From IMG/VR virus record IMGVR_UViG_3300007734_000743, positions 1 through 62,388 of that record: a stretch of DNA of 62,388 bases; one strand, 5' to 3'. The DNA comes from a virus. Shown here piece by piece: positions 1 through 18,319 of the stretch. The notes under the pieces were generated by a model, which made no database searches, was not told the DNA's origin, and saw only the letters and a list, made by a program, of their open reading frames with translations. Position numbers and translations under genes: made by a program. Position 1 is the stretch's first letter; each line of letters starts with the position of its first letter.

Positions 1-1
1 T

Positions 2-178
2 ATTGATATTATCTTTGAAAAAAGAGATTATTTTGAAGATTTTCTAAAGTGTGTAAATGGACAGATACCTTCGTGGTTTGAAGACGACTGTAATATGTTT
101 GACATTAGACCTTTTGTTGAGGACATATTTTATTCTGATATGATTGTTAGGCTCAAGGCTGAAGGATTGTATCTTTAA
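2..178 (+). CDS. C-terminal fragment of an unknown protein, cut by the window edge
   Basis: An open frame enters from the left edge and ends at TAA 176-178, giving 58 residues without a start. The fragment is rich in Asp, Phe and Glu and ends in KAEGLYL. I recognise no family. It is followed at once by the CCCC-TCTT-GGGG hairpin and the first of the repeated promoters, so it is probably the last part of another cassette gene of the same array. Confidence 0.6.
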   Translation: MDIIFEKRDYFEDFLKCVNGQIPSWFEDDCNMFDIRPFVEDIFYSDMIVRLKAEGLYL

Positions 179-202
179 TTCCCCTCTTGGGGTCGTGAGA
201 CT

Positions 203-239
203 GTTTTTCCATATTTCACAATTTCAGCGTATAATAGAT
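203..239 (+). promoter_or_regulatory. Cassette promoter 1, leaderless type
   Basis: GTTTTTCC, then 19 nt, then TATAAT (230-235), then AGAT, then the ATG at 240. The same 37-bp layout recurs eight times in the first 3.5 kb. A CCCC-TCTT-GGGG hairpin (181-192) lies just upstream and may end the previous transcript. Start sites normally lie about 6-7 nt after a -10 box, so RNA should begin at or within the ATG. Confidence 0.8.
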
Positions 240-944
240 ATGGAAATCATTTACACAGCTACTGTTGGTTCTAAAATGCATGGTTTGTCAACACCACAAT
301 CTGATGAAGACACTAGATACATTTACAAGCTGTCGCTCAGGGAAGTGATTTCACCATTTGCCACAGATAGAACTAAAACCACATCTTCCAATGGCGAAGA
401 TACCGAATCTTGGGAGCTAAGAAACTTTGTTAAGCATTTAACCTCAGGCAATCCTACAATGTATGAAGTTATTAAATCTCCATTGTATATTAAGGATAGT
501 AACTCTGAATTGCTCAGAATAGTTCCTAACTATGCTTTTGATGGAAGAAAGATTTTATTTGCTCACATTGGTTATGCTGAGGCACAACTAAAAAGATACT
601 TGAGAAACTTTCAGCAACCAGCTGAGACTAACACTTTAAGACGAATACCTAAATCAATTGTTGCCGCTTATAGAGTATTAGCACAGGCTGACCAGCTTCT
701 TAATACAGGAACATTTGAGCCTGTAATTAAAGACTACTCACAATCTTTACATGATAAGCTGATGACAATCAAGCTGATGTCCGCTGATGATATTACTTTA
801 GATTTTATCAAAGAACATGAGCTAGGTATTGAAAAAGGTATTCAAGATTTGAAGATTATGTTTGAGGATTTACCAAGCTCAATAAAGGATAAAAAGCCAG
901 ATATTGACGCCTTAGAGGTCTTGCTCATGTCGTTTTACAAGTGA
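240..944 (+). CDS. Nucleotidyltransferase-fold protein (DNA polymerase beta superfamily, COG3541/RlaP-like)
   Basis: A 234-residue protein. Residues 10-24 hold the nucleotidyltransferase signature: GS at 10-11, GL at 15-16 and SDED at 21-24, the expected metal-binding acidic pair. After it comes the mostly helical body typical of the phage and bacterial predicted nucleotidyltransferases of COG3541. Members transfer a nucleotide to an unknown acceptor, and no substrate can be read here. I chose ATG 240 because it sits 4 nt after TATAAT as in the neighbouring cassettes; an in-frame start at 144 would lie upstream of the promoter. No ribosome binding site precedes it. The gene is the first complete unit of the cassette array and so a candidate early, host-directed function. 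Confidence 0.75.
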   Translation: MEIIYTATVGSKMHGLSTPQSDEDTRYIYKLSLREVISPFATDRTKTTSSNGEDTESWELRNFVKHLTSGNPTMYEVIKSPLYIKDSNSELLRIVPNYAFDGRKILFAHIGYAEAQLKRYLRNFQQPAETNTLRRIPKSIVAAYRVLAQADQLLNTGTFEPVIKDYSQSLHDKLMTIKLMSADDITLDFIKEHELGIEKGIQDLKIMFEDLPSSIKDKKPDIDALEVLLMSFYK

Positions 945-968
945 CCCCCTGCAAGGGGCTTTAAGCCC

Positions 969-1005
969 GTTTTTCCATATTTCACATTTTCAGCGTATAA
1001 TAGAT
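969..1005 (+). promoter_or_regulatory. Cassette promoter 2, leaderless type
   Basis: GTTTTTCC at 969-976, TATAAT at 996-1001, AGAT, ATG 1006. Upstream lie two nested hairpins, CCCC-TGCAA-GGGG (946-958) and GGGCTT-T-AAGCCC, directly followed by CGTTTTT. This looks like an intrinsic terminator whose T-run is also the left end of the promoter. Confidence 0.8.
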
Positions 1006-1623
1006 ATGAGCGAAGCAGACATCATCAGCAAATACACAAAAATTGATTGGGAAAAAATTTCTGAAACTGAAGGACTTTCCGAGAGCTTCTTAAGAGAAAA
1101 CAAAGATAAAGTTCTTTGGTCAAAAGTTCTTAAGAGAAACAAATTTTCTGAAGATTTTATCTTGGAGTTTCAAGATAAGTTGGATTGGTCTTGGCTTGCC
1201 AGCTTTCAAAAATTTTCTGAAGATTTCATTAGAAAATATTCTTATGCCTTGGATTGGGAAGAAGTTTTGCAACACCAAGTGCTTTCTGAAAATTTCATCA
1301 GAGAACATCAAGTTGGCATGAATTGGTTTATAATTTCAAGTTCTCAAAAATTATCTGAGGATTTTATTAGAGAATTTCAACATAAAGTGTATTGGTGGCA
1401 TATTTCTTGTCACCAAAAATTATCTGAGGATTTTATTAGAGAATTTCAGGATAAGGTGCATTGGTCACAAATATCAGAAAAGCAAGAACTTTCTATGGAT
1501 TTTATTGAAGAGTTTGAGGATAAAGTAGATTGGAACATTCTTTGGAACCATGAAAATTCCCACAGGTTATCTTCAGAATTTAAGAAGAAATTCAAGAAGC
1601 ACGAGCCAATGTCTAAGTGGTAA
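1006..1623 (+). CDS. Tandem-repeat protein with LSEDFIREF-DKVxW units
   Basis: A 205-residue protein built almost entirely of about seven tandem units of roughly 23 residues with core LSEDFIREFQ, DKV, W and a closing I-S-x-x-Q-K. Each unit looks like a helix pair with a conserved Trp, so the whole is probably a solenoid. I have no named function; repeat proteins of this look suggest protein-protein binding. The DNA repeats are diverged at third positions, so this is an old expansion under protein selection. The start follows TATAAT-AGAT. There is no signal peptide or membrane segment. In an early cassette array, a binding role against a host protein is an inference only. Confidence 0.75.
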   Translation: MSEADIISKYTKIDWEKISETEGLSESFLRENKDKVLWSKVLKRNKFSEDFILEFQDKLDWSWLASFQKFSEDFIRKYSYALDWEEVLQHQVLSENFIREHQVGMNWFIISSSQKLSEDFIREFQHKVYWWHISCHQKLSEDFIREFQDKVHWSQISEKQELSMDFIEEFEDKVDWNILWNHENSHRLSSEFKKKFKKHEPMSKW

Positions 1624-1678
1624 TCTTAAGCGATAAGGGTAAAAATTTACCCTTATCCCCTCCTCACAATCTCAGCCC

Positions 1679-1715
1679 GTTTTTCCAGGTTTCACAATCT
1701 CAGCGTATAATAGAT
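1679..1715 (+). promoter_or_regulatory. Cassette promoter 3, leaderless type
   Basis: GTTTTTCC at 1679-1686, TATAAT at 1706-1711, AGAT, ATG 1716. An AAGGGTAAA-AA-TTTACCCTT hairpin (about 1636-1655) ends the preceding unit. Two copies of the genome-wide CACAATCT word lie here (1665 and 1693), the second inside the spacer of the promoter. Confidence 0.8.
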
Positions 1716-1931
1716 ATGGAACCTTTAGACATGACACTAGAAGAAGCGTTGGAGCGAAACCAATTTTTACAAAAGGCTTTAGATGAAGCCATTAACTTGG
1801 CAGTAATCCGAACGTGGGATTACAAAGATATTGTAGCAGGTTGGGGTGGTGATAATAATGCAACTTATGATACTAGAGAGCCGAAAAGCTCTTTTCCTGC
1901 TCTAGTGGAATACTTGGAGGAGAAGAAATGA
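1716..1931 (+). CDS. Small acidic protein of unknown function (71 aa)
   Basis: A 71-residue protein beginning MEPLDMTLEEALERN. The first half is predicted helical; the second contains a Gly/Asn-rich stretch and a C-terminal LVEYLEEKK. I recognise no family. ATG 1716 follows TATAAT-AGAT as in the other cassettes. Its TGA overlaps the ATG of the next small gene (ATGA), so the two are translationally coupled and share the cassette promoter. Confidence 0.7.
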   Translation: MEPLDMTLEEALERNQFLQKALDEAINLAVIRTWDYKDIVAGWGGDNNATYDTREPKSSFPALVEYLEEKK

Positions 1932-2044
1932 CATTGTATCAAGTCCAAGGATTGATTGTATTCTATGTTGTCCCATGCGTCATCGTTCTCTTGGGATACT
2001 TCTGGGTGACATATTCAACAAGAAAAAAGAAAGAGAAGAAATAA
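1928..2044 (+). CDS. Tiny single-pass membrane protein (38 aa)
   Basis: A 38-residue frame starting MTLYQVQGL. It has one strongly hydrophobic segment (about residues 8-26, with VPCVIVLLGYFW) and a very basic tail ending RKKKEKK, so the C-terminus should stay in the cytoplasm. It overlaps the previous gene by ATGA, which supports real translation. I see no homologue by eye. Small membrane proteins of this shape in phage early regions are often exclusion or host-envelope modulators, but that is inference. Confidence 0.6.
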   Translation: MTLYQVQGLIVFYVVPCVIVLLGYFWVTYSTRKKKEKK

Positions 2045-2071
2045 ATTAACCCCACAAGGGTTCTTCAGCCC

Positions 2072-2108
2072 GTTTTTCCAGTTTTCACAAATGCCAAGTA
2101 TAATAGAT
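2072..2108 (+). promoter_or_regulatory. Cassette promoter 4, leaderless type
   Basis: GTTTTTCC at 2072-2079, TATAAT at 2099-2104, AGAT, ATG 2109. An ACCC-CACAA-GGGT hairpin and CAGCCCG precede it. Confidence 0.8.
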
Positions 2109-2480
2109 ATGAGCGAAAAAAACCTAGTTTTTCATGTTTTCGGATATGACATCATTCAGCGACCAGTTGACAGTTACCGTGATTTCATTGGGAGACAAGC
2201 TAGAACACTTCCACAAATACAAGTAGGTAAAACTGTTAGTTATTATGGGCATCAGCACACAGAGTACGGAAGATGTATAGAAAATGATATTTTTGAGACA
2301 GCAGACGAGGCTTTGGAAGTAGCTAAAACTCGTTTGGCAAAAGAAATCCAAGGGTTACAAGAACAATTAGCAGAGTGTGAAAATCACGAAATAAAAATAA
2401 AACTTTATGAAGACATTTTGAAGGAAACAGCAACCAAAGAAATTAATAGACTTGCCAAGGAGAATCACCTTTTAGGTTAA
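2109..2480 (+). CDS. Unknown protein with a C-terminal coiled coil (123 aa)
   Basis: A 123-residue protein. The N-terminal 60 residues are mixed (FHVFGYDIIQRP, then SYYGHQHTEYGRC). From about residue 65 it is a long charged helix with heptad-like Leu spacing (LAKEIQGLQEQLAECEN), probably a coiled coil. I recognise no family. The start is fixed by TATAAT-AGAT at 2099-2108. Immediately after the stop lies a sequence like the 3' end of a tRNA (2487-2511). Confidence 0.65.
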   Translation: MSEKNLVFHVFGYDIIQRPVDSYRDFIGRQARTLPQIQVGKTVSYYGHQHTEYGRCIENDIFETADEALEVAKTRLAKEIQGLQEQLAECENHEIKIKLYEDILKETATKEINRLAKENHLLG

Positions 2481-2486
2481 AGTACG

Positions 2487-2511
2487 GGTTCAAATCTCAC
2501 TGCTCCACCAA
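2487..2511 (+). other. tRNA-3'-end-like sequence ending in CCA
   Basis: GGG-TTCAAAT-CTC resembles a T-arm with its conserved TTCAAAT loop, followed by ACTGCTCC and ACCA. No complete tRNA can be drawn: the T-stem is weak and no D or anticodon arm is present. A GGAG at 2460-2463 could pair with CTCC, giving a truncated tRNA-like fold of about 52 nt. It may be a tRNA remnant, a tRNA-like 3' end of the preceding mRNA, or chance. Confidence 0.3.
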
Positions 2512-2536
2512 TTTCCCCATAAGGGGCATTCAGCCC

Positions 2537-2573
2537 GTTTTTCCAGTTTTCACAATTGCCAAGTATAATAGAT
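2537..2573 (+). promoter_or_regulatory. Cassette promoter 5, driving a non-coding RNA
   Basis: GTTTTTCC at 2537-2544, TATAAT at 2564-2569, AGAT. It has the same layout as the protein cassettes, but the expected ATG is replaced by GTAAGAC and no open frame follows. A CCCC-ATAA-GGGG hairpin lies upstream. Confidence 0.75.
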
Positions 2574-2722
2574 GTAAGACGAAAATCTTACAAGGTGCAG
2601 AAAGAGAACACACCTTGGGAAGAACGAAATTGCTTCCTGAAAGACGTAGCTCCCTCGCTGAAAGGCAGGGAGTGAACAACCTTTATATGTATATGTGTGC
2701 GAGAGTAAAATAAAACACTCGC
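2574..2722 (+). ncRNA. Candidate structured small RNA with its own cassette promoter
   Basis: Transcription should begin at about 2574-2576. The sequence then folds into successive hairpins: GTAAGA/TCTTAC (2574-2579 with 2586-2591), AAGGTG/CACCTT (2592-2597 with 2611-2616), GGAAG/CTTCC (2618-2622 with 2633-2637) and CTCCCT/AGGGAG (2650-2655 with 2667-2672). A GCGAG/CTCGC stem (2699-2703 with 2718-2722) and a CCCC-TTCTT-GGGG hairpin close the unit. No open frame longer than a few codons is present. I know no RNA family with this layout. It occupies the only stretch of about 300 bases in the array without a protein gene. Confidence 0.6.
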
Positions 2723-2748
2723 CTTCCCCTTCTTGGGGTCTTCAGATT

Positions 2749-2785
2749 GTTTTTCCAGGTTTCACTGACACCAAGTATAATAGAT
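2749..2785 (+). promoter_or_regulatory. Cassette promoter 6, leaderless type
   Basis: GTTTTTCC at 2749-2756, TATAAT at 2776-2781, AGAT, ATG 2786. A CCCC-TTCTT-GGGG hairpin lies upstream. Confidence 0.8.
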
Positions 2786-3103
2786 ATGAAAGAATTAAAT
2801 GGGAAAATCTACAACGAGCAAAATGAGGTAGCAGTGATTATTAGCACCAATTATGGTGCTGGTTGGTCTACTTGGAATACACAATATCCCGAATGTCTTT
2901 TTGACCCAGATTGTGTGAGGTCAATTTTGAGTGGTGAAAGAAACCACGAAAAGATTGCTCAAGAAAAGTGGGCTGATGGTTGTTGGAGTGGTGAAAACAG
3001 CGACGTTGTTTGGGTGCCAGTAGGCACAAAGTTCATCATTCATGAATACGATGGCTTGGAAACTGTTGTAGATTTAATGGATTTTAATTGGAAAGAAGCG
3101 TAA
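2786..3103 (+). CDS. Conserved-looking small protein of unknown function (105 aa)
   Basis: A 105-residue protein starting MKELNGKIYNEQNEVAVII. It has several Trp residues and an NYGAGWSTWN motif near residue 25, then a C-terminal half with WVPVGTKFIIHEYDG. The pattern is that of a compact mixed alpha/beta phage protein; similar NYGAGWSTWN segments occur in uncharacterised phage proteins, but I cannot name a family or role. ATG 2786 follows TATAAT-AGAT. One AGATTGTGT word lies within it (2908). Confidence 0.65.
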   Translation: MKELNGKIYNEQNEVAVIISTNYGAGWSTWNTQYPECLFDPDCVRSILSGERNHEKIAQEKWADGCWSGENSDVVWVPVGTKFIIHEYDGLETVVDLMDFNWKEA

Positions 3104-3139
3104 AACACTTGCTCAATCCCCTCACGGGGCTGTCAGATT

Positions 3140-3176
3140 GTTTTTCCAGGTCTCACGAAGATTGGGTATAATAGAT
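3140..3176 (+). promoter_or_regulatory. Cassette promoter 7, leaderless type
   Basis: GTTTTTCC at 3140-3147, TATAAT at 3167-3172, AGAT, ATG 3177. A CCCC-TCAC-GGGG hairpin lies upstream. Confidence 0.8.
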
Positions 3177-3401
3177 ATGACAGCACAAGACCATAATGAA
3201 AAAAATCTAGAAACCATCAAATATCAGGAATCGTACATCAATCATTTACAAGAAAAAATTGACAAACTAACATCTGTCATTGAATCTGGTAAGCCTGTGT
3301 GTCCTTATTGCAAGACAGAACTGCAGTTGGTGAGGGAAGAAAGGTATTACCTGCGAGGCAGAGGTGAAGAAGATGTATGGAAGTGCTATTGCACTGATTA
3401 A
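3177..3401 (+). CDS. Small coiled-coil plus zinc-ribbon protein (74 aa)
   Basis: A 74-residue protein. The first 38 residues form a charged helix (QESYINHLQEKIDKL). The rest holds CPYC (about residues 42-45) and WKCYC near the C-terminus, a likely four-Cys zinc knuckle. A nucleic-acid or protein-binding role is possible; no family is recognised. The start is set by the cassette promoter. Confidence 0.65.
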   Translation: MTAQDHNEKNLETIKYQESYINHLQEKIDKLTSVIESGKPVCPYCKTELQLVREERYYLRGRGEEDVWKCYCTD

Positions 3402-3422
3402 CCCCATACACAATCTCACCAC

Positions 3423-3459
3423 GTTTTTCCAGGTTTCACGAAGATTGGGTATAATAGAT
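3423..3459 (+). promoter_or_regulatory. Cassette promoter 8, leaderless type
   Basis: GTTTTTCC at 3423-3430, TATAAT at 3450-3455, AGAT, ATG 3460. The upstream hairpin is weak here; instead there is an ACACAATCT word at 3408. Confidence 0.8.
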
Positions 3460-3726
3460 ATGAGCAGACATTCAGCAACAACAAAAGATGGATTGGAAAT
3501 GATAATTGGTTACGACAGACCACTTAGTGAATACTTTATTCAGGTGTACGACGAAAACGATGAATTGATTTCCGACTGGTCATCGTCAGGTAATTCGATG
3601 ATTAAGAATCATCCTCCTATGGCTAACAGCAAGATGCTCTCAATGATTGAGCAAATCATGAGCGACGAAAGCCAGAAGCTACTGGCTCCGCAGATTAGGT
3701 TGCTCGCCTTGGATTTGCCTTTCTGA
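3460..3726 (+). CDS. Unknown small protein (88 aa), last gene of the cassette array
   Basis: An 88-residue protein with an N-terminal beta-like half (LEMIIGYDRPLSEYFIQVYDENDELI) and a helical C-terminal half. No family is recognised. The stop TGA overlaps an AGATTGTGT word (3726). After it the array ends in G-rich repeats and the HNH gene. Confidence 0.65.
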   Translation: MSRHSATTKDGLEMIIGYDRPLSEYFIQVYDENDELISDWSSSGNSMIKNHPPMANSKMLSMIEQIMSDESQKLLAPQIRLLALDLPF

Positions 3727-3913
3727 GATTGTGTGGGAAGGGAAAAGGGGCACTTTTTTAAAAAGTGCTTTTAATTTTTTTTCCTATATAGAGCATAGGG
3801 GGTACTTTGTGTGGTGAAAAGGGAACCCATAACCCCCCTGATTTTTCAAACCCGCTCACATTTATCGACAGAGGCATAGGGGGGTGGGGTAAAAATAACA
3901 CCCGGTACTATTT
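3727..3913. repeat. Intergenic G-rich repeat cluster (GCATAGG units)
   Basis: No gene is seen. GCATAGG is repeated at about 3793, 3874 and 3922, each followed by a G-run or GTG. GGGTAAAAATAACACCC at 3887-3903 recurs at 4721-4737, beyond the HNH gene. An AAAAGG/CACTTTTT region near 3745 may end transcription of the array. Confidence 0.5.
3886..3903. repeat. Left copy of a direct repeat flanking the HNH gene
   Basis: GGGGTAAAAATAACACCC. The 17-nt core is identical to 4721-4737, and the preceding AGGCAxAGGGGG is shared too. Each copy can fold into a small GGGT/ACCC stem. Confidence 0.6.
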
Positions 3914-4552
3914 TCAGTCACGCATAGGTGTTTTTTTATTTGATAATAAGTCCTTAGCTGCCGTTGTGATTGCATCGTTATAAAAACTCTTATGCTCTAA
4001 ACGATGGCATATTGCACAAAGCATTATACATTTAGGTAATTCGTTTAAAATTATGCCAAATGAATAGTTTTTAATTTTGCTAAATTCAAATGTCTTTTCA
4101 ACGCCTTCGGAGTGGTGGAAATCTAAGCAAATATATTCTGACATGTCCTTAGGTTTCCACCCACACAATTCACATTTCCCGCCTTTATTCTCAACAGCAA
4201 AATGTCTATAGCCTAATGTTTTTATTTTAGTTACGCATTTTGAGCAAAAAATTCCATTTCTTGATTTTGAGAATATTTTATCACATCCAGGACACAATCT
4301 TTCTGTATAAACATAGATTCTTGAATTTTTAAATATTTGTTTTCTTTTGTTAACATCTTGATTGTATTTATTTAATATCTTTCTATATTTTGATTCACTC
4401 TCATACATATATTCTATCAATTCTTTATCATAATTATTTAGTTTTATAGGAACGCAATTGAAGCAATTAACTCTGCCTCTATAATCAAACCTTTTTCCTT
4501 TAAACTTAAATCGCTTACAGAATTCGAAGTTGCAAATTTTACATTTAGCCAT
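3914..4552 (-). CDS. Freestanding HNH homing endonuclease
   Basis: A 212-residue protein with three Cys pairs before the nuclease core: C4/C7 with C30/C33, then C87/C90 with C103/C106. The HNH core follows, with CELCGW (127-132), the FHH motif (145-147) and CAICHRLEH (179-187). This is the zinc-stabilised HNH form typical of intron-less homing endonucleases in phages. I chose ATG 4552 because TATAAT (4559-4564, minus strand) lies 6 nt upstream, so the mRNA is again leaderless; a longer start at 4603 would precede the promoter. Copies of GGGTAAAAATAACACCC lie on both sides. It is transcribed against its neighbours, as expected for an inserted selfish gene. Confidence 0.85.
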   Translation of the reverse strand: MAKCKICNFEFCKRFKFKGKRFDYRGRVNCFNCVPIKLNNYDKELIEYMYESESKYRKILNKYNQDVNKRKQIFKNSRIYVYTERLCPGCDKIFSKSRNGIFCSKCVTKIKTLGYRHFAVENKGGKCELCGWKPKDMSEYICLDFHHSEGVEKTFEFSKIKNYSFGIILNELPKCIMLCAICHRLEHKSFYNDAITTAAKDLLSNKKTPMRD

Positions 4553-4558
4553 AATACT

Positions 4559-4564
4559 ATTATA
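4559..4564 (-). promoter_or_regulatory. -10 box of the HNH gene
   Basis: TATAAT on the minus strand, then AGTATT, then the ATG at 4552. No Shine-Dalgarno sequence is present. Confidence 0.6.
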
Positions 4565-4603
4565 CAAAATTAAAATATTAACACCCTTTATTTTTAGTGA
4601 CAC

Positions 4604-4786: not shown

Positions 4787-5005
4787 ATGCTTTACAATTT
4801 GATTGTTTTTTTAACAGTTTTTGAAAACACTATGTTTTTTTTCGCTTTAACATACAAAAAATTTTTTGTGCTTGCGAAATCAGTTAAATATCAAATTTCT
4901 CTTGATAAAGCAGAGAATAAATATTTTGAGCAACTTGAAATAGAATCCTTAGCACTTGCTGTGCTTTATGTGCTATGTTTACTTTATGGAGCTCACATAA
5001 TTTAA
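4787..5005 (+). CDS. Small two-helix membrane protein (72 aa)
   Basis: A 72-residue protein with two hydrophobic segments: residues 1-22 (LYNLIVFLTVFENTMFFFAL) and about 53-70 (LALAVLYVLCLLYGAHII). A charged middle segment separates them. Two-segment proteins of this size include holins and other envelope-acting phage proteins, but nothing here decides the role. I chose ATG 4787 because CGTATATA ends 4 nt upstream, the same spacing as the cassette genes. The next gene is a tRNA with its own -10 box. Confidence 0.6.
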   Translation: MLYNLIVFLTVFENTMFFFALTYKKFFVLAKSVKYQISLDKAENKYFEQLEIESLALAVLYVLCLLYGAHII

Positions 5006-5033
5006 AATTATAGAACATTGTCATGTTTTTATC

Positions 5034-5045
5034 GTATAATATATT
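5034..5045 (+). promoter_or_regulatory. Promoter of the tRNA pair
   Basis: GTATAAT with TATAAT at 5035-5040, then ATATT, then G5046, the first base of the tRNA acceptor stem. The transcript should begin at or next to the mature 5' end. It also supports a start site 5-7 nt after the -10 box in this genome. Confidence 0.65.
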
Positions 5046-5142
5046 GCGGGATAGAGCAATGGTAGCTTGTCTGGCTCATTGAGTGCCTTAAGAGACATTG
5101 AATAACCAGGAGGTTGGGGGTTCGAGTCCCTCTCCCGCTCCA
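5046..5142 (+). tRNA. tRNA-Met(CAT)-like gene with a 24-nt insertion in the anticodon loop
   Basis: Acceptor GCGGGA (5046-5051) pairs with TCCCGC (5133-5138), then T and encoded CCA (5140-5142). A D-arm (GAGC-AATGGTA-GCTT) and a T-arm (GGGGG-TTCGAGT-CCCTC) are present. The anticodon arm would be TCTGG-CTCATAA-CCAGG, a canonical CAT loop, but 24 nt separate CTCAT from AACCAG. The insert contains CTTAAG and an AGACA that can pair with the TGTCT of the 5' anticodon stem. The decoded amino acid is inferred by removing the insert. Whether it is spliced, processed or inactive cannot be read from sequence. Confidence 0.6.
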
Positions 5143-5145
5143 CAT

Positions 5146-5217
5146 GCTCCGATAGTCTAGTGGTTAGGACATCGCTCTTTCAAGGCAAAGACACGGGTTC
5201 AATTCCCGTTCGGAGTA
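5146..5217 (+). tRNA. tRNA-Glu(TTC)
   Basis: A 72-nt cloverleaf. Acceptor GCTCCGA pairs with TCGGAGT (the first pair is G-T), the D-loop contains TAGTGGTTA, the anticodon loop is CTTTCAA and the T-arm is ACGGG-TTCAATT-CCCGT. The anticodon stem has one C-A mismatch. No CCA is encoded, so the phage or host CCA-adding enzyme must complete it; such an enzyme is encoded at 8403-10004. It follows the tRNA-Met-like gene by 3 nt and probably shares its transcript. Confidence 0.85.
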
Positions 5218-5235
5218 AATAACACACAATCTGGA

Positions 5236-5988
5236 ATGAATATGTATCTACCTCTTCTTGCCTTTTCCCTTATCACACAATCTTCATTAGATGATGCACA
5301 ATGCAAAAAAGCTCTCAATGAAATTTTGCCCACTATGCGAACAACCAATGCCATGAGCTTTAGACTAGAGGGTGAAAATGAATACAAAGGTTTTTTCACA
5401 AAATACTCTGGTAGCTTTAAATGGTTCAAGAATGAATCTGTAATCAAATCCGAGCTGAAGCTTTCAAGAGATAATACAAATCTTCAAAGAATAGTGGCTG
5501 ATGGAAAGAAAGTATGGGCACACAATCTGCAAAGAAATGAATACACTGTGGCCCGATATTCTCTAGAGCTTTCTGTAGGAGAAGACTACATGAAAAGGTA
5601 TATCAGCGGTGTTAAGTATCCTGTGCTTGGCATGGGCCAGCATTTAATGACCTTGGCAGACCAAGTGGGATTTGTATCACCTTCACTGAAAGATTGGATT
5701 GGCGGCATCTCTTGGCAAGGAAAAATAGAAATAGATAAAAACAATTCTTTGAGAATTGTGAAGAGAATTTATCAAACTGTGGCTGATTATCGTTATGTGA
5801 TGTGGGAGCTTGAATCGTTTGATGAGGGTGTGACATTTAGTTTCTCAAGCATTAAGATTTATAACAAAAGCTTTGATGGCTCTACCACCACCACCTATCT
5901 TTATTTGGACGATTGTGTGGGTGTGGATTATTCAGGATTTAAATTTGTGCCTCCATCTGGCAGTAAAGTATTATGGATTAAAGATTGA
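5236..5988 (+). CDS. Exported LolA-like lipoprotein-carrier-fold protein
   Basis: A 250-residue protein with an N-terminal hydrophobic stretch (YLPLLAFSLITQSSLDDA) that looks like a short signal peptide. The body is a run of amphipathic strands (FRLEGENEYKGFFTKYSGSF, then SELKLSRD and VWAHNLQRNEYTV) like the half-barrel of LolA/LolB and related outer-membrane lipoprotein-sorting proteins. I infer a periplasmic or surface location and lipid or lipoprotein binding; a Gram-negative-type host would fit. The start ATG follows an ACACAATCT word, and no clear -10 box lies at the usual distance, so it may be read from the tRNA promoter. Family assignment is by pattern only. Confidence 0.45.
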   Translation: MNMYLPLLAFSLITQSSLDDAQCKKALNEILPTMRTTNAMSFRLEGENEYKGFFTKYSGSFKWFKNESVIKSELKLSRDNTNLQRIVADGKKVWAHNLQRNEYTVARYSLELSVGEDYMKRYISGVKYPVLGMGQHLMTLADQVGFVSPSLKDWIGGISWQGKIEIDKNNSLRIVKRIYQTVADYRYVMWELESFDEGVTFSFSSIKIYNKSFDGSTTTTYLYLDDCVGVDYSGFKFVPPSGSKVLWIKD

Positions 5989-6024
5989 GAAGGAAGATTT
6001 TCGCTCGATTTTTAAATTGTAAAT

Positions 6025-6690
6025 ATGAACAAACACAATCTACTTAAACGAATAGCATCTGTTGCCACAGAACTAGATGTAAAAGGTTTCACTAAAGAAG
6101 CTAAATCTTTAGATTTGATTCTTCTAAAACTTGCTCAATCACCTGTTGCCGCACCTGGCTCAGATGATGATGGAAATGATGATATTGAATTTCTATCAGC
6201 TGATGAAAATGCATTCAGCCTCGAAAAATGGAGCAAAATTAAAGAAATATTGAAATCAATTTACGAATCTATCAGAAGTGTTTCATACATGCAAGAAAGA
6301 AGTTTTTTTGAAAAAGTGTATGCATACCTTTCTAATAAAGGATATTCAGGACAATATTTAGAGCGGTGCTTGGGGCATTTGCAGAAATTTAAAGAATTGC
6401 TCATTGACACTGAAATGATTTTATCAAAAATGAACACTGAATATGAAAAAGCTTTCATTGAAGATTTTAACAAATTGTTTCAAACTTGGAAAGTGGGCTA
6501 TAGAGAAGTGTATGAAGATGGAAAACCAGAATTTTTAATTACTAACAAGCCAGAACAAGATGAGAAAAAAATGCAAATATCAAGTAAGTTACAAGATATT
6601 ATTGATATAATTGGCTGGGACAATGTACGCTTATTGCCTTGGGAAGAAAACCCAGCTCTAAATGATAAACCTTTTTTCAATATTAATTGA
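6025..6690 (+). CDS. Unknown protein with the GFTKEA-type N-terminal tag (221 aa)
   Basis: The first 38 residues (LLKRIASVATELD, then GFTKEAKSLDLILLKLAQ) are nearly identical in pattern to the start of the protein at 12913-13722, while the rest of the two proteins differs. After an acidic linker (residues 45-60) comes a helical domain with no family I know. The shared tag ends in KLAQ, which looks like a processing or docking signal. TAAATT lies 6 nt before the ATG. It is the first gene of a three-gene run ending in the fucosyltransferase-like gene. Confidence 0.55.
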   Translation: MNKHNLLKRIASVATELDVKGFTKEAKSLDLILLKLAQSPVAAPGSDDDGNDDIEFLSADENAFSLEKWSKIKEILKSIYESIRSVSYMQERSFFEKVYAYLSNKGYSGQYLERCLGHLQKFKELLIDTEMILSKMNTEYEKAFIEDFNKLFQTWKVGYREVYEDGKPEFLITNKPEQDEKKMQISSKLQDIIDIIGWDNVRLLPWEENPALNDKPFFNIN

Positions 6691-8255: not shown

Positions 8256-8406
8256 TTTCTTGTATTTTTTCCGCAATCTTTCTTTCTAATTCATCTCTCA
8301 AAGCTTCAGCCTTTCCAATGTAATAAAATGTATCTGGTTTTCTTCTGTAAGCTAAATAGGCAACCACCCCTGTAAAAATTACCGCTAGTGTTAATTTTTT
8401 GCTCAT
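8242..8406 (-). CDS. Small single-pass membrane protein (54 aa)
   Basis: A 54-residue protein MSKKLTLAVIFTGVVAYLAY followed by RRKP and a charged helix. The hydrophobic run at 5-20 with a following basic cluster indicates one membrane segment with the C-terminal helix in the cytoplasm. The ATG at 8406 overlaps the TGA of the CCA-adding enzyme (ATGA). The role is unknown. Confidence 0.6.
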   Translation of the reverse strand: MSKKLTLAVIFTGVVAYLAYRRKPDTFYYIGKAEALRDELERKIAEKIQENVHS

Positions 8407-10004
8407 GTTGTTTCCTTTTGACTCTCTAACCATTGTAAAGCTCCAGCTCTATCACTGAATAAGCCCATGTTTTGTGCTTTCCAGGCCTCATCAAGCATGA
8501 GCTTGATAGCTGGGCCTTGAATACCCAATACTTGTTGTACATCATTTCCATCAATAAATGATGCAATTCTTTGCATTCTTTTATGAAGCCATGCAAGAGC
8601 TGATTCTCTTGATTCCATAGCTGGATTGTGCTCAAGAATAAGCTTTCTATGCTCCTTTAGAATTTCCCCAATTATTGGACCACCTTTGTTGCCAAGATAA
8701 GGCATAATGTCTCTACCTTGAAGAAGGTCTGGATGTTTGTGCTCGTAAACATTGTATTGTTTAGCCAAATCTGACATCTGCCTAGCCTCTGCTGGAAGCT
8801 CCTTAGGTAATGGTGGCCTTCCAGAGTGGTCGGCTTCAATAAGTAGCTCAAGCATTCTGATGTTTGCAGGATGAATTTTTTCAGCTAAGCTCTTGACAAA
8901 AGCTTCTTGTTTTGGTGTGTTAGAATGATGAATGTGGCTAAGGTGAAATTCTACCAAAGGAACCACTTTATCTATAATGTTTTTGGGAGCACCAATGGAT
9001 TCAAGAAAAGCTCTTGCTTTTGGCCCACCTTGTTCTTCATGTCCATGAGATGTAATTCGGTCTATTCCTTTTTTATTTATTACAGCTGTGGTATCAGGTT
9101 TAGCAAAGTCGTGAGCTAAAGCTGAGTAAATCAATACTTCTCTATCTTCTGGGCTAAGATTTTCTCTTTCAGCTATATTTGCAGCTTCGTTCATTACATG
9201 AGCTGTATGCACATCCACGTCTCCCTCAGGATGATACTCTGGCTCCTGCGGTGTGCCTCTCAGATTGTGTATTTCAGGAAAGTTTTCAGACCATCCAGTG
9301 GTGTAGAGAAAATCAAGAGCTTTTCCAGGCTCTATGCCTTTTGTGACAAGTTTTTTAAACTCCTCGTAAATTCTTTCTTTTGGAAGATGCTTGTATTCTT
9401 CTCTTATAGATTGTGCCAGCTCTGCTGTTTCTGGAGCTATGTCAAAACCAAATCGGGAAGCGAATTGCATTCCTCTAAGCACCCTCAATGGGTCTTCAGA
9501 AAAAGCCTCAGATGTGTGTCTCAGTATTTTATTTTGCAAATCTTGTCTACCATTGTATGGGTCAATTATTTCGCCAGTGATAGGGTTATATGAGATTGCG
9601 TTTATGGTAAAATCTCTTCTAGCTGCGGCTTCCTCAGGTGATAAATCACTTCTCACTTGCACATTAAAGTCTTTGTGGCCCACACCAGATTTTGAATCTA
9701 AGCGAGGTAATGAAAAATCAAAATCTGAGCCATCTTCGCCTACAAACTTAATCACACCAAATGATTGACCCACAAGGTCTGCCTTTCCATACTTAGACAG
9801 AATCTGATTTAGGTCTTCGTAGTTGACATTATATACTTCAAAATCTATGTCTTTAGGTGAAGCTCCAAGTATAGCATCTCTCACTGCTCCTCCAACAATT
9901 AAAGCTCTTCCACCTTTATTATTTATATCAGTTAAAATTGAATAAACATAACCTGGAAGTTTAATTGGGAGCTTTTGTATCTCCTGACTATACTTATACC
10001 ACAC
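8403..10004 (-). CDS. cca: CCA-adding tRNA nucleotidyltransferase with HD domain
   Basis: A 533-residue protein. The head domain carries LIVGGAVRD (36-44) and the DID metal pair (52-54) of class II CCA/poly(A) polymerases, followed by RRDFTINAI (129-137) and the DPLRVLRGMQFASRFGF region (171-187). A metal-dependent HD phosphohydrolase domain follows (H266, H298-D299). It adds or repairs the 3' CCA of tRNA, including the phage tRNA-Glu that lacks an encoded CCA. The start is GTG 10004, embedded in AGATT-GTG-TGG. The first eight residues, MWYKYSQE, are the same as those of three neighbouring unrelated genes and are not part of the family, so they look like an added tag. Confidence 0.9.
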   Translation of the reverse strand: MWYKYSQEIQKLPIKLPGYVYSILTDINNKGGRALIVGGAVRDAILGASPKDIDFEVYNVNYEDLNQILSKYGKADLVGQSFGVIKFVGEDGSDFDFSLPRLDSKSGVGHKDFNVQVRSDLSPEEAAARRDFTINAISYNPITGEIIDPYNGRQDLQNKILRHTSEAFSEDPLRVLRGMQFASRFGFDIAPETAELAQSIREEYKHLPKERIYEEFKKLVTKGIEPGKALDFLYTTGWSENFPEIHNLRGTPQEPEYHPEGDVDVHTAHVMNEAANIAERENLSPEDREVLIYSALAHDFAKPDTTAVINKKGIDRITSHGHEEQGGPKARAFLESIGAPKNIIDKVVPLVEFHLSHIHHSNTPKQEAFVKSLAEKIHPANIRMLELLIEADHSGRPPLPKELPAEARQMSDLAKQYNVYEHKHPDLLQGRDIMPYLGNKGGPIIGEILKEHRKLILEHNPAMESRESALAWLHKRMQRIASFIDGNDVQQVLGIQGPAIKLMLDEAWKAQNMGLFSDRAGALQWLESQKETT

Positions 10005-10026
10005 AATCTTAATTTACGAATGAAAA
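10005..10026 (-). promoter_or_regulatory. Upstream region of the CCA gene, repeated before its neighbours
   Basis: On the minus strand CGTAAATTAAGATT runs straight into the GTG start. The same sequence precedes the gene at 10569, and close variants precede 11138 and 12099. TAAATT lies 6 nt before the GTG, so the mRNA is probably leaderless. Confidence 0.5.
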
Positions 10027-10569
10027 TTAATAAAACCTAGAATAAGGATTGCTTTTTTCATTTGACCACCAGTAAGTGCCTTTCATTTCTTGAGTTTCGT
10101 ACTCTGGAAATTTTTTTTCAAAATTGTGTGTAGATGATAAAAGATTTTGCAATATATATCTAAAAACCTGCCAAAAATCATTTTTAAGATTTATATTTAC
10201 AGAACTGATAGATTCTCTAAGGCCTGGAAAATTCACTGTTAAATCAAAAGCCTCTTCAACAATATTTTTGAAATTGTCTGGTAAAAAATTTGAATCAAAA
10301 ATATTTAAGATATTTAGAGATGCATTTTTTGCTGAGGAAAGTAATAAAGAAACATTATTATTTTCTTTAGCAATAGAATAATTATTAGACATGGCTTCAT
10401 AGATTTCTAAAGAAATTTTTTGAATAATATCTGAAATGGATGCTCCGTAAAGAGATGGCTGCATTTTATTAAGCTCTTTGTCGGATTCTATTTTAGCCTG
10501 AAACTCTAAATCATTCCATAGTTTTTGGAAAGCTTCATCTTGATTCTCCTGACTATACTTATACCACAC
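10027..10569 (-). CDS. MWYKYSQE-tagged unknown protein (180 aa), paralogue of the next gene
   Basis: A 180-residue, mostly helical protein starting MWYKYSQENQDEAFQKLW. Its body resembles the protein at 10590-11138: both have an S-A-K/R rich helix, an LP/IP-D-x-(N/I) segment before an acidic helix, and FWxxFRYxLxxxL near the C-terminus. They are paralogues after a tandem duplication. No family is known to me. The GTG start lies in AGATT-GTG-TGG at 10567-10574. The aromatic tag and lack of any enzyme motif suggest a structural or packaged protein, which is inference. Confidence 0.55.
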   Translation of the reverse strand: MWYKYSQENQDEAFQKLWNDLEFQAKIESDKELNKMQPSLYGASISDIIQKISLEIYEAMSNNYSIAKENNNVSLLLSSAKNASLNILNIFDSNFLPDNFKNIVEEAFDLTVNFPGLRESISSVNINLKNDFWQVFRYILQNLLSSTHNFEKKFPEYETQEMKGTYWWSNEKSNPYSRFY

Positions 10570-10589
10570 AATCTTAATTTACGAATAAA

Positions 10590-11138
10590 TTAGATAGAAT
10601 CCTTAAAATTATTTACATCAAAATCATTAATTAATTCAGGATATTCAAAAACATTATTACCGTTTGTTAATTTTTGCTCAAGAAAATACCTAAAAAATTT
10701 CCAAAAAATTGGTAAACTCTTCAAGTTATTGCCTATGGGCATAAAGTTTGAATTAAAAGAACTTCTATGGTCAATAGGGGCACAATCTAAAATCGCTTCA
10801 TCTATTTTCGAATTTATATCATCTGGTATGTCATATCCCGTTTCTTTAAGAAACATAGCGGCATCTTTAGCAGATTTCCTAGCTGATTCTTTTACTTCAT
10901 CAAAAATTTCAACATCTGAAAAGTTGTATTTTGAAAAGGTGTACTTAGGTGGTTGATAAGAGGATATTATTCTATCTAATACATTTTTCACGTAAATGGC
11001 AATATGCTGAACTATATCTTGTGTGGAATATTTTTCATTTGTTGGGAAAATGTTTTCTTCATAAGGATTAGATTCAATTGCATCAAAATCAATATCTGGA
11101 GTAAAACCGTTATTTTCAACACAATACTTATACCACAC
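10590..11138 (-). CDS. MWYKY-tagged unknown protein (182 aa), paralogue of the previous gene
   Basis: A 182-residue protein starting MWYKYCVENN, a divergent form of the MWYKYSQE tag. It is helical and acidic at the N-terminus, with FWKFFRYFLEQKL near residue 150 matching the paralogue. The start is GTG 11138 in AGATT-GTG-TGG with TAAAAT 6 nt upstream. No enzyme motif is visible. Confidence 0.55.
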   Translation of the reverse strand: MWYKYCVENNGFTPDIDFDAIESNPYEENIFPTNEKYSTQDIVQHIAIYVKNVLDRIISSYQPPKYTFSKYNFSDVEIFDEVKESARKSAKDAAMFLKETGYDIPDDINSKIDEAILDCAPIDHRSSFNSNFMPIGNNLKSLPIFWKFFRYFLEQKLTNGNNVFEYPELINDFDVNNFKDSI

Positions 11139-11147
11139 AATCTAATT

Positions 11148-11176
11148 TTAAATGAAATTAGTCTGAAAACCTTTTG
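11148..11176. repeat. 29-bp direct repeat, copy 1
   Basis: It begins TTAAATGAAATTAGTC and continues to CCTTTTG at 11176. It is identical to 12109-12137. Both copies lie just upstream of an MWYKY-tagged minus-strand gene, so promoter and tag were probably duplicated together. Confidence 0.7.
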
Positions 11177-11184
11177 GTACAAAT

Positions 11185-12099
11185 TTATTGAGGTTTATAA
11201 TCTTTAAATAAATTTTGAATTTCAGCCACCACTCTTTGATATTCTTCATTACTTATTCTTTTAACAATTTCTTGGAACTTTTGTAAATCTTTCAAAGTTT
11301 TTTCTTTATCGAATGGTTTACGATATCGCTCAGGATATCTTCTATTTTGTGCTTCGTGCCATCTTTCTGACTCTGATAAATAGAAATCAGCATCGCCTTC
11401 AAAATCTCTTATTTTTGCACCATCCACCACATTGTAAAGAGGCCTTTTATTAGGTGAATTATCTTCTGAATATCCAGTTTGAAAAACATTTCCAGAGCCA
11501 AATGGGTCAAAATAGAAAAATATACTTTTAATCACATATGGCATAAAATTTAAAAGCTCTTTTTTATAATCGCCACTTTGCAATTCCCTTCTGTCTTCGG
11601 GAAGCAAAGGCTCATAAAGAACAGCATTTGCGTCCACTTTATAATCAGGGACGGCTAATTTTGGTAATTTTTCTGCATTTGATGGATTCATTTTATAGTA
11701 TAAATCATTATATTCATTAACCACCCTGGCAAAAATTCTTAACTCCATCACTCTTTCAAATGTTTGTATTAACTTGTCAAAATCAGTTCTTGTTGTTTCA
11801 ACAATTTTATCTTTATAGCTCACAGTTGACGTTGATATATCTCCTTTTTTCTTTGGATATTTTTCAATCATATTAGTTTCTGGATTTAAATATACAAATT
11901 TTTCAACACCCTGGCCAACAAGTTTTTTATTTTGAAAAGTTTCATAATCTCTATTATTTGGCCAAACACCTTTGGGAATCTTGTAATTTTCGTGACTTAA
12001 TCCCATTGCTTCAAGGGCATCTTTTACTGGTCCTTTTTGTACTTCGCCTAACATATATTCTGTTGGCTTTTCTGTCTCCTGACTATACTTATACCACAC
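11185..12099 (-). CDS. MWYKYSQE-tagged unknown protein (304 aa)
   Basis: A 304-residue protein with the tag, then GEVQKGPVKDALEAMG, then VGQGVEKFVYLNPETNMIEKY (about 58-78), which resembles a glycine loop and following strand of a kinase-like fold. YNVVDGAKIRDFEGDA lies further on. The usual catalytic HRD and DFG motifs are not clear, so a kinase call would be unsafe. The start is GTG 12099 inside AGATT-GTG-TGG. The 29-bp repeat lies directly upstream and again beyond its 3' end. Confidence 0.5.
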   Translation of the reverse strand: MWYKYSQETEKPTEYMLGEVQKGPVKDALEAMGLSHENYKIPKGVWPNNRDYETFQNKKLVGQGVEKFVYLNPETNMIEKYPKKKGDISTSTVSYKDKIVETTRTDFDKLIQTFERVMELRIFARVVNEYNDLYYKMNPSNAEKLPKLAVPDYKVDANAVLYEPLLPEDRRELQSGDYKKELLNFMPYVIKSIFFYFDPFGSGNVFQTGYSEDNSPNKRPLYNVVDGAKIRDFEGDADFYLSESERWHEAQNRRYPERYRKPFDKEKTLKDLQKFQEIVKRISNEEYQRVVAEIQNLFKDYKPQ

Positions 12100-13724: not shown

Positions 13725-14312
13725 TCAATTCCTAATATTTTTTACCACTTGGTTCCAATCCATAATTTCTAAAATTGCGTCAATGTATCCTTCGCGGTCT
13801 GTTCCAAAATCAGCAAAGTAGGCATGCTCGTACATGTCTATAGCTGCAATAAGCTCACAATTCCACATAGGAAATGTGTTCTGTGTATCTCCAATTACAT
13901 TGATAATCATTTCGTGGTCATAGCAATAACCGACAAATGCCCATCCTCTGGCTGCAAGAGCTGTGGCTTTTAAATCATTGATGTAATTTGAAAATGTATC
14001 ATAATTGGCCTTGATTAAAGCTAAAAATTCTTTGGTGGGTTCGCCGTTTCCATTAAGATGATTAAAAAACACTTTATGATTAAGAAAACCTCCATAAGCA
14101 AAAGATTCAGCCATTTTTTGGTTTCTTACATCTGAAAATGTGGCGTTTACATTTTTAAGATTTTTTCTTTGATTGAGTGCCTCTACAGCTTTGTTGTTAT
14201 TTTTAGCATAGCCTTGCCAAAGCTTCAAATGCTCTTCATTAGTTTTTTTAGAAATACCCACTTTTTCTAATTTATTTTTAGGCAGTTCTTTTGGAATCTC
14301 TAACTTTACCAC
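13725..14312 (-). CDS. Iron/manganese superoxide dismutase
   Basis: A 195-residue protein of normal Fe/Mn-SOD length. The metal ligands can be placed: His28 (EEHLKLWQGY), His79 (FLNHKVFF), Asp159 and His163 in DMYEHAYF, the family signature. The enzyme converts superoxide to oxygen and hydrogen peroxide in the cytoplasm. Some bulk residues are unusual (CYDHEMIINVIG instead of the common W-L form), so activity and metal preference cannot be read. The start is GTG 14312, again in AGATT-GTG, with TAAAAA-TAGATT before it. A Dps/ferritin-like gene lies 1.3 kb away, suggesting an oxidative-stress group. Confidence 0.85.
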   Translation of the reverse strand: MVKLEIPKELPKNKLEKVGISKKTNEEHLKLWQGYAKNNNKAVEALNQRKNLKNVNATFSDVRNQKMAESFAYGGFLNHKVFFNHLNGNGEPTKEFLALIKANYDTFSNYINDLKATALAARGWAFVGYCYDHEMIINVIGDTQNTFPMWNCELIAAIDMYEHAYFADFGTDREGYIDAILEIMDWNQVVKNIRN

Positions 14313-14360
14313 AATCTATTTTTAAAGGTAGAAGGTACTTTTACCTTTAAATAAGATTAT

Positions 14361-15527
14361 GTGGATGTATACAATCTGATACTTGACAGAGGCTATATCG
14401 GAGCCCTGGAATATGCAAGCAAAATTGAAAACAAGAATTATCGCCTTGCATCAGAAATAGACCAGATTGTGTGTGAGTTGTATAAAACAGCTAGCGGAGT
14501 TTCTAAAAACATAAAAACTGCTCAATCTGCCATGCCTCGATTTGAAACATACCGAGCTCCTGAGAGACCCACCGTCACAAGAACTGCACCATCTCAACCA
14601 GCATCATCTACAGATTTTGAAGGCAGACCTGAGGGCATGCCTGAATCTAAATCAGCTTTGTATGGAATGGGTTATGGAGCAAGTTTGTATGGAAAATTAA
14701 AACAAGCTGTTCCTCCTTCAGCTTGGCCAAAAATCTTGGAAATGATAAAAGGGATTTCACAATCTGGAAAAATTTCAGCAGATGAACTGCAAGTAATTTC
14801 AAATTTGATGCATACAGTACAAGATGCTTCTACAATAGAATTTTTGGCTAGCAAGATTGGCTTAGACGCAGCACAAACAGTTAAAGTAATGGAAACACTT
14901 AAACAAGGAAAAACTGCGGCTGAAATAGAAGCTCTCATTAAAGGTTTCAATTTGTCTACAAAGTCTACTGGAAAGCTTTCAAAACTCACTGAAATCCTTT
15001 TGAAAGCCACTGAAAAAGCCGGATTTTTAGAACCAGTAGTGAAATTTATTAAAGGTGCTTCCCGTTTTTTAGGCCCTTTAGCTATAGCTTTTGATACTTA
15101 TGATATTTTTACTGATTATGAAAGAGAAGGTATGAGTAATCGTGTAATTTGTAAAATTACTTCTGCAATTTTGGGTTTAAGTTCTTTATTGACCGCAGCT
15201 ATGCCAGCTGCATCTGCTATACTAGGTGCACTTTGGCTAGCTGCTTCATTAGGCTGTGGTTTGATTCCGCCAAAGAAAAATGAACAGGCAAAAAATAGTT
15301 ATCAATCTCTCTCACAATCTCAAATTAATCAAGCAGAAGCCACTGTTCAAAAAAACAACTTGTCTTCTAATGACCAAAAATTAATAGACGGATTGTTTTC
15401 TGGAGACAAGAATAGAGCAGAAATAATTAATAGTGTAAGAAACCTTAAAAACAATAAGCAATTTGAAAATCCAGTGGATTCTTTGGCTTTCATTCAGAAA
15501 CAATTGAAACAAATTAAAGCAGATTAA
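14361..15527 (+). CDS. Large unknown protein with N-terminal tag and hydrophobic core (388 aa)
   Basis: A 388-residue protein with an N-terminal helical segment ending in ELYKTASG (about 39-46), like the other tagged proteins. A Pro/Thr-rich linker (55-95) follows, then a helical middle. Residues about 230-305 form a hydrophobic region with two to three possible membrane segments (FLGPLAIAFDTYDIF, ILGLSSLLTAAMPAASAILG, ALWLAASLGCGL). The C-terminal 80 residues are polar. It could be a virion protein that inserts into a membrane. No family is known to me. The start is GTG 14361 after TAAATA. A strong hairpin terminator follows the gene. Confidence 0.5.
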   Translation: MDVYNLILDRGYIGALEYASKIENKNYRLASEIDQIVCELYKTASGVSKNIKTAQSAMPRFETYRAPERPTVTRTAPSQPASSTDFEGRPEGMPESKSALYGMGYGASLYGKLKQAVPPSAWPKILEMIKGISQSGKISADELQVISNLMHTVQDASTIEFLASKIGLDAAQTVKVMETLKQGKTAAEIEALIKGFNLSTKSTGKLSKLTEILLKATEKAGFLEPVVKFIKGASRFLGPLAIAFDTYDIFTDYEREGMSNRVICKITSAILGLSSLLTAAMPAASAILGALWLAASLGCGLIPPKKNEQAKNSYQSLSQSQINQAEATVQKNNLSSNDQKLIDGLFSGDKNRAEIINSVRNLKNNKQFENPVDSLAFIQKQLKQIKAD

Positions 15528-15533
15528 ATACAT

Positions 15534-15589
15534 CTGACACTTAAAACTAAACATTTTAAAAAAAAATTAAATGTTTTTTTAAGTGTCAG
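15534..15589. terminator. Bidirectional intrinsic terminator
   Basis: CTGACACTTAAAA (15534-15546) pairs with its complement at 15577-15589, and ACATTT/AAATGT pairs inside. Runs of A and T flank the stem, so it can work for both the plus gene ending at 15527 and the minus gene ending at 15586. Confidence 0.8.
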
Positions 15590-15945
15590 TTTAATGTAAG
15601 AAGATATTTCAACTTATTGAGCAAGCCTGTCATTTCATCTCTTATGTTGAGCAGGTCAGTATCTCTTTCGTCTAAAGCTTGCGGTAAATCTTGAGAAAGC
15701 ACATCAATAAATGCATCAATAACATTTACTTTATTATCTGCAAGGTTCATTAGTGAAATATTAAATTTATCTTTAGCTACAGGTCTCTCATTTTTCCCGA
15801 TATAAATTTCCATAAATTCATCAATTAAACCATCTAACTCAGAATAAGTGTCTCCAAACGCATTGTGCTCGGCAAAACTTTTAGTTTGCCAATGATAAAT
15901 TCTAAGTTGATTTTGTAATGTCAAAAATAATTCAACTAGGTTCAT
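15586..15945 (-). CDS. Dps/ferritin-like small protein
   Basis: A 119-residue, all-helical protein. The first 50 residues match the Dps/ferritin ferroxidase pattern: YHWQTKSFAEH (His18, His27), then LDGLIDEFMEIYIGK (Asp38, Asp42, Glu43, Glu46). Dps proteins bind and oxidise iron and shield DNA, but they are usually about 160 residues, so this is a short form. Similar proteins (I recall them as DUF5856) occur in many large phages without proven function. With the nearby SOD it suggests defence against oxidative damage. TATAAA lies 8 nt upstream of the ATG. Confidence 0.6.
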   Translation of the reverse strand: MNLVELFLTLQNQLRIYHWQTKSFAEHNAFGDTYSELDGLIDEFMEIYIGKNERPVAKDKFNISLMNLADNKVNVIDAFIDVLSQDLPQALDERDTDLLNIRDEMTGLLNKLKYLLTLN

Positions 15946-16042
15946 AATACATTTTTATAATTAAAATCAAAGTTTACCTTTTATTTAGTATATTTTTAGA
16001 TTGCAGGTAGGTCATGAGAATAAAAAAACAAAATAATAAAAT

Positions 16043-16777: not shown

Positions 16778-16787
16778 TCCAGCCTTT
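16751..16787. terminator. Convergent bidirectional terminator
   Basis: A perfect 14-bp stem, AAAGGCTGGACTAA (16751-16764) with TTAGTCCAGCCTTT (16774-16787), and a 9-nt loop. The stop codon of the GIY-YIG gene lies in the 3' arm. It sits between convergent genes. Confidence 0.75.
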
Positions 16788-16794
16788 AAATAAA

Positions 16795-17601: not shown

Positions 17602-17605
17602 ACTA

Positions 17606-18314: not shown

Positions 18315-18319
18315 AGATT

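Follow-up and report, generated by a model that had tools for sequence, protein, structure and literature searches.

A short locus near one end of a viral sequence raises the question of why a phage would place nearly the same promoter ahead of one gene after another, each time with the start codon almost touching the −10 box. The window analyzed here covers positions 1 to 62,388 of IMG/VR record IMGVR_UViG_3300007734_000743 (62,388 nucleotides) and the promoter elements in question lie between positions 203 and 3459. We interpret this region as the right-hand end of a one-directional array, in a jumbo phage, of host-transcribed, mostly single-gene, leaderless early units that are separated by a composite terminator-promoter module, which doubles as a site of homologous recombination. 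We assign this reading a probability of roughly 0.7.

The pattern GTTTTTCC-N19-TATAAT-AGAT is present in eight copies in the window, all on the + strand (promoters 1 to 8, at 203–239, 969–1005, 1679–1715, 2072–2108, 2537–2573, 2749–2785, 3140–3176 and 3423–3459). Shuffled sequence is expected to contain a mean of 0.01 copies of GTTTTTCC-N19-TATAAT and no shuffle reaches eight, which confirms the eight-unit pattern that a sequence-only reading of the locus had described. AGAT directly follows TATAAT in 8/8 copies and is followed in turn by ATG in seven, the unit at 2574, an RNA unit, having GTA instead; the seven ATG-led open reading frames (ORFs) span 71–234 codons. The earlier description of the 37-bp promoters as identical does not hold, as both boxes and AGAT are invariant but the 19-nt spacer is variable, giving a mean pairwise identity of 0.81. 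The ATG does lie at a fixed distance from the −10 box, but the gap is 4 nt rather than the 5 nt first given, with the A of ATG as the fifth base. Most units also harbor one gene, as had been proposed, the exception being unit 3 with two ORFs (1716–1931 and 1928–2044). The words CACAATCT and AGATTGTG, which are frequent in the window and were considered as a second signal, fall mostly within genes and were rejected.

Hairpins precede most of the promoters, as the same reading had held, the stem scored here being CCC/GGG where that reading had specified CCCC/GGGG. Such stems are found ahead of six of the eight promoters; the hairpins annotated are CCCCTCTTGGGG (181–192) before promoter 1, CCCCCTGCAAGGGG (945–958) before promoter 2, CCCCACAAGGG (2050–2071) before promoter 4, CCCCATAAGGGG (2515–2526) before promoter 5, CCCCTTCTTGGGG (2726–2738) before promoter 6 and CCCCTCACGGGG (3118–3129) before promoter 7, all on the + strand. 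At two modules a GGG..CCC stem continues straight into the GTTTTTCC box: the terminator-like stem GGGCTTTAAGCCC (956–968), which overlaps the CCCCCTGCAAGGGG hairpin, and GGGTTCTTCAGCCC, an alternative stem within 2050–2071. Because these stems abut the box, its T-run can double as a terminator tail and as the −35-side box. The separator between neighboring genes would then be a module of ~60–75 bp, consisting of a C/G hairpin with a T-run tail, an overlapping −35-like box GTTTTTCC, TATAAT, AGAT and the start codon.

The proteins encoded in the window mark a large tailed phage and include DNA polymerase III alpha, DnaB helicase, RecA and two sigma-70-type factors; tRNAs are also present. The DNA polymerase III alpha domains, together with the absence of a family B polymerase from the four genomes tested, indicate a lineage that is not T4-like. 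Relatives include two jumbo phages, G001 (347 kb) and G013 (378 kb), with DNA polymerases 83% and 56% identical to that of the window, respectively, and G009, G017 and G010, in which this identity is 51–54%. The tested stretch of a further close relative, G002, begins to the right of the expected array position.

The sequence-only reading had suggested looking for the pattern in related phages, and the sister phage G001 indeed carries 60 such promoters, of the form TTTTCCA-N18-TATAAT, within 38 kb (located about 34–68 kb). Its upstream box, TTTTCCANNTTTAACA, has 79 matches genome-wide and 0 on the other strand, and a CCC/GGG hairpin lies ahead of 40 of the 60 promoters. The triplet that starts at the fifth base after TATAAT (n = 60) is ATG in 43 cases, GTA in five and GTG in three, and about 45 of the promoters open an ORF exactly 4 nt past the −10 box. 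The G001 array encodes an antirestriction protein, ArdC; the cassette content also includes RlaP, GP88, a DNA-glycosylase-like protein and numerous small proteins without assigned function. The window begins with the 3′ end of a further cassette gene (1–178, + strand), an open-ended ORF cut at the contig edge; together with its downstream module (window 1–242) it aligns to G001 50607–50850, inside the array, with 87.7% identity. As the right flank of the array is syntenic as well (window 4999–6104 to G001 70457–71540), the left part of the array is missing from the window. To the left of the G001 promoter array (14000–33999; L125) we also observed ~60 tandem tiny ORFs of ~50–60 codons, each opening with ATGATTAATACAGATTG (MINTDCVE...); these are rich in QVWDQV-like repeats, and a stop often overlaps the next start (ATGA).

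The same layout with different promoter boxes is found in G013, where it reads AAAAATCCCC-N22-TATATA-N4-ATG. There are about 50 copies of AAAAATCCCC, most of which stand precisely 22 nt ahead of a TATATA-like box; in 24 copies a start codon lies at gap 4. Comparison of the G013 and G001 cassette genes gave only three weak or partial matches, so the layout outlives both gene content and promoter sequence. Among 2.9 million viral contigs searched with the exact promoter patterns, G001 alone matched the window/G001 type and G013 alone matched its own. No similar module was found in phage records and bacterial genomes contained no match to the G001/window promoter consensus. No such array was seen in 60-kb stretches of G009, G017 and G010, in which Shine-Dalgarno motifs are commoner. 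Two of these phages show a different intergenic repeat system made of perfect palindromes, with GGGGTGATAATATTATCACCCC downstream of TTATTTGACA in G009 (L114–L116) and GGGGGGTTAACCCCCC in G010 (L120–L122).

Comparison of the window with G001 reveals that the cassettes have been shuffled. The RlaP cassette lies upstream of the window-opening gene in G001 and downstream of the same gene in the window, and the two corresponding alignments (window 1–242 to G001 50607–50850 and window 205–1008 to G001 49201–50005) overlap in the promoter only. Likewise, window 2459–2576 matches G001 61252–61371, after which comes an RNA cassette in the window and a protein gene in G001. Both junctions, read base by base, fall within the promoter module. 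The RlaP DNA is 93.8% identical between window and G001 but its promoter only 70%, and orthologous genes reach up to 94% identity against 65–76% for their promoters, a comparison that comprises three pairs. Promoter identity is 0.81 and 0.86 within each genome versus 0.73 between window and G001, and the spacers of neighboring promoters resemble each other more than they do when the order is permuted (P = 0.003 and 0.0003). The idea that genes are exchanged as modules together with their promoters is therefore supported, with a modification: gene order differs in G001 and the breakpoints lie in the module, but gene and promoter do not form a fixed pair. Since the promoters track the genome and not the gene, genes seem to have been exchanged between modules, or the modules to have been homogenized afterwards, more than promoter and gene have moved together. 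RecA, as would be needed for a RecA-type exchange, is present in all four genomes tested.

Several points weigh against the reading proposed here, and they bear on the terminators, on the likeness of the promoters and on the transcription start. T-tailed hairpins were scored as terminators at just two array modules. Selection for one polymerase could also make promoters alike within a genome; on this account the element would spread, or stay alike, by convergence and point mutation and the differences in order would be ordinary phage mosaicism. The boxes and their spacing do fit what selection by an RNA polymerase would produce, and the spacers vary. We nonetheless regard this explanation as unlikely, because the spacer, although outside the consensus, is likewise genome-specific and correlated between neighbors, and the gene-order breakpoints lie inside the module. 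Homologous recombination between modules explains the order changes, the breakpoints, the homogeneity and the likeness of neighbors, whereas polymerase selection could account for the boxes but for neither the neighbor pattern nor the breakpoints.

The third point concerns where transcription begins. A −10-like box peaks at gap 6 in 266 non-array G001 genes (27 versus 1.75 per position in the control), starts in a Staphylococcus phage were measured ~6 bp past the −10 box (PMC7698491), and −10 motifs of leaderless Deinococcus genes lie 6–7 bp before the ORF, where moving them closer harmed expression (PMC12340547). A canonical start distance would put the RNA start on the G of ATG and the start codon would be lost. 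With a gap of 4, either a form of the polymerase starts two bases earlier here or the model needs changing. Outside its array, about 10% of G001 genes have GTATAAT or TGTACAAT boxes 6 nt before the start codon; these form a second class of predicted leaderless genes, probably with another class of promoter.

The array messages themselves are nevertheless strongly implied to be leaderless, as the sequence-only reading had predicted, by the fixed 4-nt gap, the conserved starts, the near absence of alternative starts and the GTA at sites that lack an ORF. The three orthologues shared by window and G001 can be aligned from residue 1, with near-identical first codons. Of 45 gap-4 ORFs, 44 lack an in-frame start upstream, and in 44 the first 30 codons contain no in-frame start led by a Shine-Dalgarno motif. 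The start sites without an ORF mostly carry GTA, and these units are tRNA clusters, structured RNAs or Shine-Dalgarno leaders. In the related RNA cassettes at window 2574 and G001 62166, the opening hairpin closes on the base at gap 4. The RNA would accordingly begin 5 nt past TATAAT, at the A of ATG, the G of GTG or, in RNA and leadered units, the G of GTA.

It is conceivable that the promoter array is real but that transcription starts at the canonical 7–8 nt or elsewhere, so that the mRNAs are not strictly leaderless and depend for their translation on rescue by processing or by an unusual initiation factor. The gap of 4 is 2 nt below both the gap-6 peak of the other genes of the same phage and the starts measured elsewhere, and in three G001 units, which read TATAATAGATATATG, the ATG itself stands at gap 6. 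We consider such a start quite improbable, however, as two lineages with unrelated promoter boxes both keep gap 4, a +7 start would deprive almost every unit of its start codon and yet this codon is conserved, and the window and G001 RNA hairpins close on the gap-4 base. The RNA family represented by window 2574–2685 and G001 62166 contains four hairpins, a conserved loop AACGRAATTG, a GTAGCTCC..GGAGTG stem and stems that differ by paired changes. An Rfam search with the window RNA cassette (2574–2685) gave no family. Two candidate further members from an RNA pattern search of viral contigs (L165 and L166) lack the promoter and hairpins and look like chance matches.

The TTTCCA-18-TATAAT arrangement matches the sigma-70 consensus at 10 of 12 positions. 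The RNA polymerase β′ domain PF00623 was found in none of six genomes and the β domain PF00562 in neither G001 nor G013, although very diverged subunits could escape such searches. Given sigma-70-like boxes and no β/β′ domain, the host RNA polymerase is the likeliest reader of the array. The same two observations, and cassette genes such as ArdC, suggest that the array would be transcribed early.

Two further explanations can be considered. An integron-like array, assembled at the repeat by a site-specific recombinase, would fit one-gene units that lie between same-orientation repeats with inverted-repeat parts, but is very improbable: no tyrosine integrase (PF00589) was found in G000, G001, G002 and G013, with control genomes giving matches and attC structure not searched, and, whereas integron cassettes lack promoters of their own, each unit here has one and the repeats are promoter-shaped. 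That the repeats are protein-binding or partition sites merely resembling promoters is the most remote of the explanations, for although many near-identical copies lie in one region and some G001 copies are palindromic (CAGATTGTG...CACAATCTG), the start codon is strictly 4 nt past TATAAT in some 50 units and the strand bias is strict.

In the mechanism we propose, the RNA polymerase of the host, carrying the main sigma factor, would read each module on infection. Any ORF whose ATG abuts the module would be expressed without a ribosome-binding site and translated leaderless. Because the module flanks every gene, RecA-type recombination between its copies could exchange, move, duplicate and delete cassettes, and would homogenize the modules of each genome. 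A bolder extension, which we put forward tentatively and with some doubt, is that the module combines terminator, promoter, translation start and recombination site, that it provides plug-in slots re-invented in at least two jumbo-phage lineages (window/G001 and G013), and that it is read by a form of the polymerase that starts 5 nt, not 7, past the −10 box.

The window cassettes, all on the + strand, encode the following products. Cassette 1 (240–944) encodes an RlaP-type nucleotidyltransferase of the RNA repair pathway DNA polymerase beta family (234 residues, predicted leaderless ATG; PF10127, E = 1.2e-18; phrog_388), which is 94% identical to its G001 orthologue, aligned from residue 1. 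The 205-residue product of cassette 2 (1006–1623; phrog_3532, E = 1e-55) contains 'W..I...Q.LSEDFIREF.DKV' repeats and has relatives in Listeria phage LPJP1, Bacillus phage G and vB_BpuM-BpSp. In cassette 3, the first ORF (71 residues, predicted leaderless) shows 80% DNA identity to a second ORF at G001 62765–62964, and the second (38 residues) lies behind the Shine-Dalgarno sequence GGAGGAG. Cassette 4 (2109–2480) encodes a 123-residue protein without assigned function, predicted leaderless and 75% identical, from residue 1, to the G001 cassette at 60811. Its final codons are provided by a tRNA-like remnant (window 2466–2510, G001 ~61259–61303), a conserved 3′ half that ends in CCA, has a degenerate T stem and is not called by ARAGORN. 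Cassette 5 (2574–2685), behind promoter 5 with GTA in place of ATG, specifies the four-hairpin non-coding RNA, the first stem of which, GTAAGA/TCTTAC, closes on the first base; its architecture is that of G001 62166. The last three cassettes, all predicted leaderless, encode a 105-residue protein without assigned function (cassette 6, 2786–3103), a 74-residue protein with a CPYC motif (cassette 7, 3177–3401) and an 88-residue protein that is 72% identical, from residue 1, to the G001 cassette at 60475 (cassette 8, 3460–3726). A strong intrinsic terminator (3746–3772) closes the array. Just past it, on the − strand, a 229-residue zinc-ribbon/HNH-like ORF (3914–4603) without a Pfam match may encode a homing endonuclease. 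Four genes on the − strand (8403–12099) begin with a common N-terminus, MWYKYSQE/MWYKYC, and have the same leader, AGATTGTGTGGTATAAGTAT. No relatives of the phage IMPDH/GMP reductase were recovered in a search.

Shuffling modules made of promoter and terminator are known, and so, separately, are phage messages without leaders; the array would bring the two together in one dense layout, and no description of this combination was found in the literature searched. The layout suggests how a giant phage could acquire a foreign accessory gene and express it in one and the same step, and the module could serve as a recognizable tag in uncultured jumbo phages, pointing to their small RNAs and host-takeover genes. 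The 4-nt spacing, kept across lineages with unrelated boxes, would depart sharply from the way in which bacterial RNA polymerase usually selects its start sites.

The kayvirus early promoters, with 58 strong sigma-70 early promoters in vB_SauM-515A1 (PMC7698491), and the SPO1 host-takeover module also comprise dozens of strong promoters of host type that serve small accessory early genes. The kayvirus promoters differ in having a consensus TTGACW −35 box and a start 6 bp past the −10 box, and no leaderless class is described in PMC7698491. A repeated early promoter motif is likewise found in the jumbo phage AR9, in which 41 early promoter sites are read by a virion RNA polymerase and give 5′ leaders of 26–491 nt (PMC5312081); unlike the phiKZ/AR9 type, the phages studied here yielded no multisubunit phage RNA polymerase in the β′ and β searches above. 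The Thermus phage phiYS40 produces leaderless middle and late transcripts (PMC3594737), and this phage and the −10-adjacent ORFs of Deinococcus-Thermus resemble the array in placing a −10 box beside the start codon and, for the phage, in messages without leaders, as predicted here (PMC3594737, PMC12340547). The Deinococcus gap is 6–7 bp, however, compared with 4 here, and the phiYS40 class is middle/late and has no array of promoters with a repeated upstream box.

The closest known counterparts are the promoter early stem-loops (PeSLs) of T4-type phages, described in PMC4503421 as composite promoter-terminator elements that mediate modular shuffling. The array resembles PeSLs in that an early-type sigma-70-like promoter and a stem-loop are repeated between same-direction genes in a hyperplastic region, and in that genes are shuffled with junctions at the motif. 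It differs from them in residing in a non-T4 phage, in fusing the start codon to the promoter with no ribosome-binding site, in reaching up to 60 copies in 38 kb and in a module common to RNA and tRNA cassettes. The primary PeSL studies are reportedly those of Arbiol (2010) and Comeau (2014). The array thus works like a PeSL without being one.

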